NCBI RefSeq assembly: GCF_014117265.1
Contig: NZ_CP059833.1
Coordinates: forward strand, 2,449,069-2,513,068
Direction: 5' to 3'
Origin: Corynebacterium hindlerae
GTDB lineage: Bacteria > Actinomycetota > Actinomycetes > Mycobacteriales > Mycobacteriaceae
DNA: 64,000 nt
Position numbers and translations under genes: made by a program. The notes below the pieces were generated by a model. It saw only the letters and a list, made by a program, of their open reading frames with translations. It was not told the DNA's origin and did no database searches. This document shows positions 8,547 through 10,588 of this stretch, piece after piece (position 1 is the stretch's first letter; each line of letters starts with the position of its first letter).

Positions 8547-8939
8547 GTGTCGCTCTCTGAACAGGAACTGCGTGCACTGCGTGAGATCGAACAGTCCTTG
8601 ATGGCTGACGATCCAAAATTTAGCGCCTCGGTTTCGGGCGCCGGCGTGGACGGCCGATTCTCCTTTTCCCTACAAGGAGTGGCGCTCTTTGTACTTGGGC
8701 TTGTGCTCCTCATTGGTGGTGTAGCTCTCAGTCAGGAAACGCTCTGGTTCGTCGCCCTGAGTGTGGTCGGATTCCTGCTCATGCTCGGCTCGGGCATCTG
8801 GATGCTCCGCTCTAACGACTCCGGCATTTCGCTGTCCTCTCCATCGCGCCCCAAGAAGGCGAAGGGCTCCGGATCTGGCTCGGGATTTACCGGCCGGATG
8901 GACGAGCGCTTCCGTTCCCGCTTCGACGACGGGCGCTAA
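8547..8939 (+). CDS. DUF3040 family membrane protein
   Basis: A 130-residue protein that begins SLSEQELRALREIEQSLMADDP, the typical N-terminal signature of DUF3040 proteins, followed by two membrane helices (about 46-66 and 70-90) and a basic, Gly/Ser-rich cytoplasmic tail. It matches mycobacterial Rv2169c, which also lies between the metF region and mraZ. Function is unknown. The start is a GTG at 8547 with a strong AAGGAGGAAA site 5 bases upstream. A strong terminator follows, so transcription ends before the dcw cluster. Confidence 0.85.
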   Translation: MSLSEQELRALREIEQSLMADDPKFSASVSGAGVDGRFSFSLQGVALFVLGLVLLIGGVALSQETLWFVALSVVGFLLMLGSGIWMLRSNDSGISLSSPSRPKKAKGSGSGSGFTGRMDERFRSRFDDGR

Positions 8940-8992: not shown

Positions 8993-9141
8993 TTACCAGG
9001 GTTGCCCCTCTTGGTTCGTGTTGACGAATACGCGCGTGGGGGAAGCATCTCAGGCGTGTCTAGGAGCCAGTCAGTGTTTGCGTTCGTAGCACTGTCGTGA
9101 GGGGTCGTGGCTGCGTTTTGCAGTGAACGCTTCAGTGAATC

Positions 9142-9276
9142 ATCGCGGTTTTTGTGCTTGTGCTGATATTGGATTGACGATGTTCGCAGGTCATGGTAGT
9201 GAAAATGGGTGGCATCGGGGGATTATCGTCAATCTAACATCGTCAAAACACCGAGCCTGGGAGCCTTGGGGGCGTG
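9142..9276. repeat. 135-bp direct repeat, copy 1, with inverted-repeat core
   Basis: This unit recurs at 9401-9535 with 127 of 135 identical bases; all eight differences are transitions. Inside it TTGACGATGTT (9174-9184) is an exact reverse complement of AACATCGTCAA (9236-9246). The same 5' arm can pair instead as GATTGACGAT (9172-9181) with ATCGTCAATC (9225-9234), so two mutually exclusive hairpins are possible. The bases of the 11-bp arms are unchanged between copies. Whether it acts as an RNA, a protein-binding array or a genome-wide repeat family cannot be told from here. Confidence 0.85.
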
Positions 9277-9400
9277 CCAGTATGGTTTGCGTGAAAGGCT
9301 CCACTGTCTCGTGGGAAGTGGTCTTCCTATCATTGGCGCCCGGCGGCGACAGTACGTGTAGATCTTGAAAGTTGTCTGGGGGTGGGGGCGCCTACGGGTT

Positions 9401-9535
9401 ATCGCGGTTTTTGTGCTTGTGCTGATATTGAATTGACGATGTTCGCAGGTCGCGGTAGTGAAAATGGGTGGTATCGGGGAATCATCGTCAATCTAACATC
9501 GTCAAAACACCGAGCCTGGGAACTTTGGGGGCGTG
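9401..9535. repeat. 135-bp direct repeat, copy 2
   Basis: Second copy of the unit at 9142-9276, offset by 259 bp and 94% identical. The long inverted arms (TTGACGATGTT and AACATCGTCAA) are intact at 9433-9443 and 9495-9505; the alternative shorter pairing is reduced from 10 to 9 bp by one transition. Both copies read as open frames of similar peptide sequence, but five of the eight substitutions change the amino acid, which does not support a conserved protein. Confidence 0.85.
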
Positions 9536-9649
9536 GAACCCGTGGGGCCTGGGAATCCTGGAAGCCAATGTCTAAGGCTGTTGAAACCGCGGTTAGCTCG
9601 TAATTTGAGTGACTCGTCCTGGTTTTTGGGGAGGTGGTGAGAAAAGTTC

Positions 9650-9845: not shown

Positions 9846-9902
9846 GTGGGGCGTAAGTGGGGTGTTGGGGGTTGTTAGTGGGGGAAAGTGGGGTATTGTG
9901 GG
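9846..9902 (+). promoter_or_regulatory. MraZ-type operator: GTGGG boxes with 10-bp periodicity
   Basis: Three boxes at 9878-9882, 9888-9892 and 9898-9902 follow exactly the pattern GTGGG-N5-GTGGG-N5-GTGGG. E. coli MraZ binds TGGGN direct repeats separated by 5 nt upstream of its own gene, so this is the expected autoregulatory site. Two further GTGGG motifs at 9846-9850 and 9857-9861 are spaced by 11 bp. The array ends 109 bp before the mraZ start. Confidence 0.8.
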
Positions 9903-10011
9903 TGTCGGTAGTTGGGATTGGTGACTCTTCGTTCGCGGAGGGGAACAAAACCCCAAAGACCTCGAGAAAGTTGCATCTCCCAATCGCCAACTAAGGAAGG
10001 TAGGTCCGGGA

Positions 10012-10443
10012 ATGTTCCTTGGTACCTACACGCCGAAGTTGGATGACAAGGGGCGATTGACGCTTCCAGCGAAGTTCCGCGAGGAGCTGGCTGGTGGTCT
10101 CATGGTGACCAAAGGGCAGGATCACAGTTTGGCGATCTACCCCAAGGCGGAGTTTGAGGAACGTGCTCGCAAAGCGGCGCGGGTTTCGCGAACTAACCCT
10201 GAGGCTCGCGCGTTTATTCGTAACTTGGCTGCTAGTGCTGACGAGCAACGTCCTGATGGTCAGGGGCGTATCACGCTCTCGGCGCCGCATCGGACGTATG
10301 CGGGGCTCACCAAGGAGTGCGTGGTGATTGGGTCGGTTGACTTTCTTGAGATCTGGGATGCCCAAGCATGGGCTGATTACCAGGCGGAAACTGAAGATTC
10401 GTTCTCTTCCGCAGAGGGCGACATCTTGGGGGGACTGCTGTAG
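10012..10443 (+). CDS. mraZ: Transcriptional regulator MraZ
   Basis: A 143-residue protein with two AbrB-like/SpoVT domains: [23 protein letters not shown] at the N-terminus and a second DxxGRI/T element ([14 protein letters not shown], about 78-91). MraZ forms a ring-shaped oligomer and represses the dcw promoter by binding the repeated GTGGG boxes seen 110-170 bp upstream. It is the first gene of the cluster, as in most bacteria. The start is the ATG at 10012; the AAGGAAGG upstream is about 13 bases away. The gap to rsmH is 145 bp. Confidence 0.97.
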
Positions 10444-10588
10444 TACTCGCGGGTGCGTGTAAGGACTCTGCTTGGGGGTTGATCTGCTCTGGTGTACTTC
10501 CCCGACATCAGAGCGATCCCTCCAGGTAGGGCCCTATACGTACCAGCGGACGGTCGATAACGAGAAGCAGTAGGAGGTGTAACAATTC

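Follow-up and report, generated by a model that had tools for sequence, protein, structure and literature searches.

The window analyzed here is a stretch of 64,000 nucleotides from Corynebacterium hindlerae (contig NZ_CP059833.1, positions 2,449,069–2,513,068), in which a 135-bp element occurs twice ahead of mraZ, at 9142–9276 and 9401–9535 on the + strand. The two copies have 94% identity and a start-to-start distance of 259 bp. They differ at eight positions (9172, 9193, 9194, 9213, 9221, 9224, 9263, and 9265), all of which are transitions, and the 11-bp arms of the inverted repeat in both copies are free of these differences. No plausible gene lies around them, between the end of the DUF3040 gene on the left (8547–8939, + strand) and the start of mraZ on the right (10012–10443, + strand). 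These measurements reproduce an earlier description made without database searches (the sequence-only reading), which had placed the pair in gene-free DNA before the dcw cluster and had offered three explanations: an RNA with switchable folds, binding sites for a regulator, or members of a dispersed repeat family. The last was borne out by 22 full copies in this genome.

Architecture of the element

Each 135-bp unit consists of a palindromic core of 85 bp and flanks, those of copy 1 being partly common to three other loci (b, c, and d). The cores, designated a1 (9161–9245) and a2 (9420–9504), both on the + strand, matched the covariance model R1 described below with 104.6 and 104.5 bits, respectively. 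Each 22-bp arm of the core contains one 7-mer twice with a 14-bp period. In the family, the left arm mostly reads TGNYGAT and then TGACGAT, and the right arm has ATCGTCA twice. In a1, the outer left half-site is the degenerate TGCTGAT (9161–9167), followed 14 bp further on by the inner left half-site TGACGAT (9175–9181), while the inner and outer right half-sites are both ATCGTCA on the opposite strand (9225–9231 and 9239–9245). The corresponding half-sites of a2 are located at 9420–9426 and 9434–9440 (+ strand) and at 9484–9490 and 9498–9504 (− strand). The motif TTGACGATGTT with up to one mismatch was found at eight places in the window, where shuffling predicts 0.83, and five of the eight occurrences are inside the two copies. 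Among the 22 full copies the inner arm is nearly invariant and the spacers are variable, the loop mostly retains the blocks AGG, TGAAAA, and GG, the ends are mostly 5'-TG...CA-3', and the length is fixed except for a single indel.

The sequence-only reading had proposed two mutually exclusive hairpins. An alternative pairing does exist, between the inner word of one arm and the outer word of the opposite arm. Since the 7-mer occurs twice per arm at a 14-bp period, it corresponds to a register slip and not to a separate hairpin, the 11-bp arm being paired out of register inside the 22-bp arm.

A role as a structured RNA, namely a switch, a small RNA, or an mRNA stabilizer, was also considered. 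Spacer-pair covariation was absent in the 22 copies (weak copy o was omitted), where 109 of 154 spacer pairs were paired compared with a shuffled mean of 112.2, and the arms are nearly invariant. The window copies folded little or no better than their shuffles (z −1.92 and −0.49), whereas several of the nine copies folded did so with z values down to −8.6; some of the nine foldings were of the reverse strand, the two of the window copies not among them. Some spacer covariation was also seen in 15 short-loop copies from four genomes (see below). Across the window, no Rfam family matched the element at the gathering score, and permissive Rfam searching of 9100–9600 gave a single match at chance level (E 4.5). 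In addition, copies stand in both orientations relative to the neighboring genes. Together, arms conserved by sequence and the absence of spacer covariation in the 22 copies favor an element that is read as double-stranded DNA. The switchable RNA of the sequence-only reading is not supported on these counts; we consider an RNA switch unlikely and give structured RNA as a whole a very small probability.

Other functions of the core were considered and rejected. As a coding sequence, frame +1 is free of stops in 17 of 23 sequences and has one stop in the remaining six, no frame is open in all 23, and the family lengths differ by species. As a promoter (TTGACG plus a −10 box), no consistent −10 box was recognized by eye. 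Helical phasing of the inner half-sites was suggested by distances of 28–30 and 51 bp for the TG-type words, but all families shown span 27–64 bp.

Part of the spacer between the tandem copies (9277–9400) resembles the spacer of another tandem pair in the genome (G000:C1:919674/919863). Elsewhere around mraZ, direct repeats GGGCGTAAGTGGGGTGTTGGGGGT / GGGGGAAAGTGGGGTATTGTGGGT lie ahead of the gene at 9849–9903 and resemble MraZ boxes, and the mraW RNA motif (RF01746) was found at 10446–10554 with 51.6 bits, between mraZ and rsmH.

A dispersed family with genome-specific words

A DNA search of the 2.68-Mb genome from which the window is taken (G000) with copy 1 gave 19 matches, 16 of which were separate copies spanning 81–135 of the element's 135 bases, the other three being short reverse matches within two of these copies. 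The covariance model R1, built from these 16 copies, matched at 45 places. These were 22 full copies, each detected again on the opposite strand owing to the near-palindromic sequence, and a weaker copy (o), which looks decayed. The 22 full copies are distributed over 14 loci, half of which (7 of 14) have two or three tandem copies at start-to-start distances of 146–259 bp. The common flanks of the window copies do give them the look of a local tandem duplication. A chance duplication of no wider meaning, the outcome that the sequence-only reading linked to finding no further copies, is nevertheless refuted by the 20 other full copies, and its probability is negligible.

The genes next to the copies are mostly unrelated. 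They include cobN/fxsA, tex/asparaginase, phosphoglucose isomerase/VTT, biotin ligase/carboxyl transferase, whiB/LGFP, a subtilase/eccB pair, tilS-like/ftsH, cytochrome bd genes, a LepA-type GTPase gene, mraZ, and others, some without a Pfam match. At loci g and l the copies lie between convergent genes. Five loci (f, g, i, j, and n) have an open frame that runs into a copy. At f the recognizable domain begins well after the copy, and the frames at g, i, j, and n were judged by eye to be spurious, to be overly long, or to overlap the copy by a few bases. All loci are taken as intergenic, with a reservation for these five. No target-site duplication was noticed by eye in alignments with flanks.

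The sequence of the element itself was found in G000 only when 242 Corynebacterium genomes were searched at the DNA level. Searches of plasmids and phages with copy f gave no match. Of 74 stretches of viral contigs with the pattern TTGACGATG...CATCGTCAA, none was convincing under R1 (best E 0.15), and an 18-mer pattern scan of genome contigs gave three matching records, from other phyla.

The layout of the element is more widely distributed than its sequence. R1 gave weak matches in G067 and G128, each of which has its own repeats with the same layout and other words (TGACGA in G067 and TGGCCAT in G128). Two further models, R2 from six G067 copies and R3 from 15 copies of four genomes, led to G033, G158, G079, G116, G095, G091, and G187. 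The base pairs of R3 are one column out of register, which makes it mainly a sequence model; the spacer pairs of the 15 copies were counted in the correct register. In total, the layout A6-N8-A6…A6'-N8-A6' is present in at least nine other Corynebacterium genomes with different A words, and the class in at least 10 of the 242 genomes including G000. R3 matched at least 31 of the 242 at E values up to 0.01. Inspection of 23 R3 sites from eight genomes identified 21 as member-like and two as non-members (one in G090 and the second G079 site). The member-like sites read TGNYGA-N8-TGNYGA...TCRNCA-N8-TCRNCA, with deviations in one or two half-sites of some, and often lie within CGCAnA...TCTGCG. A layout scan allowing two mismatches recovered 20 of the 21, missing the G033 site (L330). 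Two lines were discarded: R2 matches in G001, G175, G144, G077, G093, G034, and G191 appeared coding or terminator-like by eye, and a loop pattern matched 4 of the 242 genomes against two for its reversed control, three of the four being unrelated and G000 itself unmatched.

The spacing of eight was compared with other spacings. A scan of 400 kb per genome for the same 6-mer twice at spacing 8, mirrored, with at most one mismatch, gave 11 sites in G000 with the known loci excluded, seven in G095, and none in G001, while spacers of 1–7 and 9–16 gave 0–2 sites each. With a spacer-pairing filter the numbers were 10, 7, and 0. An additional 380 kb of G000 contained 14 layout sites, and allowing two mismatches gave two sites in the 400 kb of G001. 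The strict scan misses the two window copies because their outer word is degenerate. The words found in G000 include CCCCGA, CCCGG, CGAGAC/TTCGAG, and GTAGAG, some in tandem arrays, and those in G095 are TGGTGA, AACCGG, CCTGGG, and GTCGAG. Copy number seems to vary strongly between species, among the matches listed.

Some positions recur in different species. G067 has at least 12 copies, one of which sits, like the window pair, between a DUF3040 gene and mraZ, and the MraZ proteins of the two genomes are 84% identical over 124 residues; a rough estimate puts the chance of one such coincidence at ~0.1. When 19 Corynebacterium mraZ loci were scored with R1 and R2, matches were obtained at the window's own locus only, and an inverted-repeat scan of 30 mraZ loci was uninformative, missing even the window's own copies. 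In G033, G116, G095, and G187, a common site lies beside what seems to be the same AMP-binding enzyme gene (by inspection of the sequences, with a Pfam match for the G033 protein). Copies can therefore persist by descent, unless such sites are favored. Separately, palindromes with different words lie downstream of seemingly the same 5'-nucleotidase-type gene in G067 (L283) and G095 (L382 7006–7071).

Miniature inverted-repeat transposons mobilized by a conventional DDE or HUH transposase would likewise be dispersed, and the mostly 5'-TG...CA-3' ends and the 22-bp inverted arms are compatible with them. Other observations speak against them. PF01797 (Y1 transposase) was found in none of three genomes (G000, G067, and G128), compared with 5 of 14 control genomes. 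All 40 matches to the arm in G000 with zero or one mismatch fall in known copies; at two mismatches there were 16 matches outside known copies and six for the reversed control. The lack of visible target duplications and the fixed length also argue against this origin, as does the IS481-type transposase beside a G033 copy, which has ends other than the palindrome. We regard this explanation as quite improbable. The IS481-like gene (L292 3534–4985; rve and HTH in Pfam) adjoins the palindrome and lies between 21-bp direct repeats, and a Transposase_mut gene beside a G079 copy was checked for further arm copies only.

Additional families in G000 were located as follows. The CCCCGA family occurs at L358 19043–19528, L359 589–827, L401 17271, and L074 1820, and in two locations it forms tandem arrays, each of two or three copies. 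A third family (TTCGAG/CGAGAC) occurs at L402 5095–5842 and 18084–18500, L403 11209, and L351 18531, in arrays with a period of ~330 bp. A fourth, with the word (A)CCCGG and long loops, occurs at L353, L357, L361, L364, L393, L398, L407, and L408, and the GTAGAG family at L398 and L406. In G095, G187, G033, and G158, several loci have two neighboring palindromes, the second carrying another word and lying ~22–40 bp from the first (L336 3135–3200; L338 2901–2966; L341 3146–3211; L327 3091–3159; L330 3131–3199; L344 3080–3143 and 13609–13669). GTCGAG palindromes were also observed in a repeated region of G095 (L380 18480 and L388 18086), the L388 copy adjoining genes that look IstA/IstB-like by sequence.

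A DUF559 nuclease gene beside the palindromes

In G095, a 333-codon gene lies between two palindromes, and its product belongs to DUF559 (PF04480). Relatives of this gene adjoin palindromes in G116, G067, and G000. In G128, a gene fragment was first met ~5 kb from a GGCCAT element, and the 3' end of the full gene carries a palindrome whose word, AGTAAA/AGTGAA, is new; this is not the palindrome for which the locus had been retrieved. A profile search of 2.11 Mb from these genomes gave five DUF559-type genes and one weak match (E 0.17, G095 L370). All five genes are within ~110 bp of such a palindrome, and for four of them it touches or nearly touches the 3' end. Specifically, gene and palindrome overlap by 3–7 bp in three genomes (G000, G116, and G128), the first half-site there including the stop codon, and are 7 bp apart in G095. 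The upstream gaps are 62 bp in G095, 106 bp in G067, and ~74 bp to the weak copy in G000. Palindromes are thus present on both sides of the gene in G095 and G000 and on one side in G116, G128, and G067. The flanking near-palindromes score on both strands.

The complete proteins of G067, G116, G095, and G128 (4 of 4) match PF04480 above the curated cut-off, and the G000 piece joins the family by tblastn (best 5e-23) and a custom profile (4e-34) only. Asp233, Glu242, Asp244, and Lys248 are invariant in 31 aligned sequences, G000 and G128 being outside the alignment. The linked protein models as a putative AbiEi-like N-terminal domain on a Vsr-like nuclease domain, and its predicted model has the Vsr-like fold. 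The G000 gene, located beside copies n and o, has, by eye, an in-frame stop and an Asn in the place of Asp244 (E-x-N instead of the E-x-D of the family), from which the family may no longer multiply in G000. DUF559 was also looked for in viral contigs, where none of 222 stretches with the pattern was confirmed, and in phages, where none was found. In G000, a PemK/MazF-like gene (L076 5254–5796) adjoins the weak copy of the element and the DUF559-like remnant.

A DNA-binding protein, DUF559 or another, might simply use the palindromes as operators, repressing its own and other genes with no mobility involved. AbiEi-type N-terminal domains are known autorepressors that bind inverted repeats, according to passages of PMC7319586, the half-sites are conserved by sequence and not by pairing, and in G095, G067, and G000 the gene is preceded by a palindrome at a distance of ~60–110 bp. 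Nevertheless, the closest position is the 3' end of the nuclease gene (4 of 5) and not the promoter (3 of 5), the neighbors of the other copies are mostly unrelated housekeeping genes, and copies at g and l lie between convergent genes. The strong dependence of copy number on species that seems to hold among the matches listed also speaks against a purely regulatory role, which we consider unlikely. The regulator-site proposal of the sequence-only reading survives in part: the conserved portions are four half-sites resembling protein sites, but the candidate binder is a nuclease.

Interpretation and comparison with known systems

The proximity of the gene to related palindromes, often with one at its very end, suggests a previously undescribed association between a repeat family and its enzyme. 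In our favored explanation, with a probability of about 0.6, the window copies are members of a dispersed family of palindromic DNA elements with period-14 half-sites and have the DUF559 nuclease as their partner in a pair resembling REP/RAYT. The four half-sites would be recognized as double-stranded DNA by a sequence-specific protein, for which the likeliest candidate is the AbiEi-like N-terminal domain joined to a Vsr/homing-endonuclease-like domain (DUF559, PF04480). The N-terminal domain would read the words, the Vsr-like domain would nick or cut, and repair would spread or maintain the palindrome. The nuclease gene, bordered by a palindrome on one or both sides, may travel or be kept in this manner, as RAYT genes are with REPs, and the many gene-free copies may have multiplied by nicking or cutting followed by repair, or by homing-like copying. 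The data establish the family, its layout, the words specific to each genome, the tandem copies, and the adjacency of the nuclease gene; binding of the half-sites by the nuclease, and its driving of multiplication in the past or present, are what we infer.

Several points weigh against this explanation. Binding and cleavage of the palindromes and their mobility are steps of inference. All five gene loci had been fetched for an element within ~5 kb, and the adjacency was then measured in base pairs. No palindrome was found upstream of the gene in G116 and G128, and in G067 it lies 106 bp upstream with none at the 3' end. The G000 protein piece had no Pfam match even at E 1. One such gene was found in the 36% of G000 examined, where at least four other period-14 families had no partner found; the stretches examined in G033, G158, G091, G187, and G079 contained no DUF559 gene, and two more distant DUF559 genes on Tsukamurella plasmids had no such palindrome nearby. 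Finally, the 15 short-loop copies (11 from G067) showed weak spacer covariation (0.342 vs 0.225 shuffled, with 5 of 500 shuffles as high), and their paired cells amounted to 59.2% compared with 53.9% (46 of 500 shuffles as high). Shared descent could explain this covariation.

RAYTs are REP-associated tyrosine transposases of the Y1/HUH type, related to IS200/IS605. In the REP/RAYT system, the nuclease gene is bounded by the same palindromes as the many-copy, often clustered, short extragenic REPs, according to parts of PMC2817692. The elements described here are similarly extragenic palindromes dispersed in many copies (22 at 14 loci), often clustered, with a nuclease gene adjoining. They differ in that no Y1 transposase was present in the three genomes searched and the linked gene encodes a Vsr-like DUF559 nuclease, in that palindromes occur on both sides of the gene in G095 and G000 only, and in that the arms carry a period-14 direct repeat with a word that varies by species and family. 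AbiEi antitoxin operators are 23-bp inverted repeats, as given in passages of PMC7319586. The inverted repeats here are similar in length, and modeling suggests an AbiEi-like two-domain fold for the N-terminal region of the linked protein; in this case, however, the fold is fused to a nuclease domain and the palindromes are dispersed genome-wide. I-Bth0305I, an intron-encoded phage homing endonuclease, has a catalytic domain fold that the predicted Vsr-like domain appears to share. No intron was seen here.

In Corynebacterium diphtheriae, passages of one report describe the stem-loop repeats Cod-1, Cod-3, and Cod-5 with 140 bp in 17 copies, 170 bp in 23 copies, and 74 bp in 35 copies, respectively, with no partner gene named for them there (PMC2267715). 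The same passages list ERIC, NEMIS, RUP, and the Rickettsia palindromic elements as small dispersed repeats with stem-loops (PMC2267715). Compared by description only, Cod-1, -3, and -5 are also small stem-loop repeats in a Corynebacterium and may be relatives of the present palindromes. ERIC, NEMIS, RUP, and the Rickettsia elements differ from them, the period-14 half-sites and the adjoining nuclease gene being features of the Corynebacterium elements. No report of a palindrome–DUF559 pairing was found at the title and abstract level in the literature on Corynebacterium repeats, miniature inverted-repeat transposons, DUF559, and Vsr-like nucleases, most subscription journals being outside the search.

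A broader and more tentative proposal, to which we give somewhat less than even odds, is that these palindromes are "word-programmed": one scaffold, A6-N8-A6...A6'-N8-A6', would carry differing six- or seven-base words, each read and copied by its own AbiEi–Vsr fusion nuclease. If the favored explanation is true, REP-like pairs of nuclease and palindrome arose with a nuclease unrelated to RAYTs, and the fusion of DUF559 with an AbiEi-like domain, a protein family that is still poorly understood, would be given a role. It would also provide a natural series of matched nuclease–word pairs from which DNA specificity could be read, and it would account for intergenic repeats in several Corynebacterium genomes that could be mistaken for local regulatory sites. 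The word-programmed class, if real, would represent an independent origin of a REP-like system in which an antitoxin-like DNA-reading domain has a fast-changing specificity.
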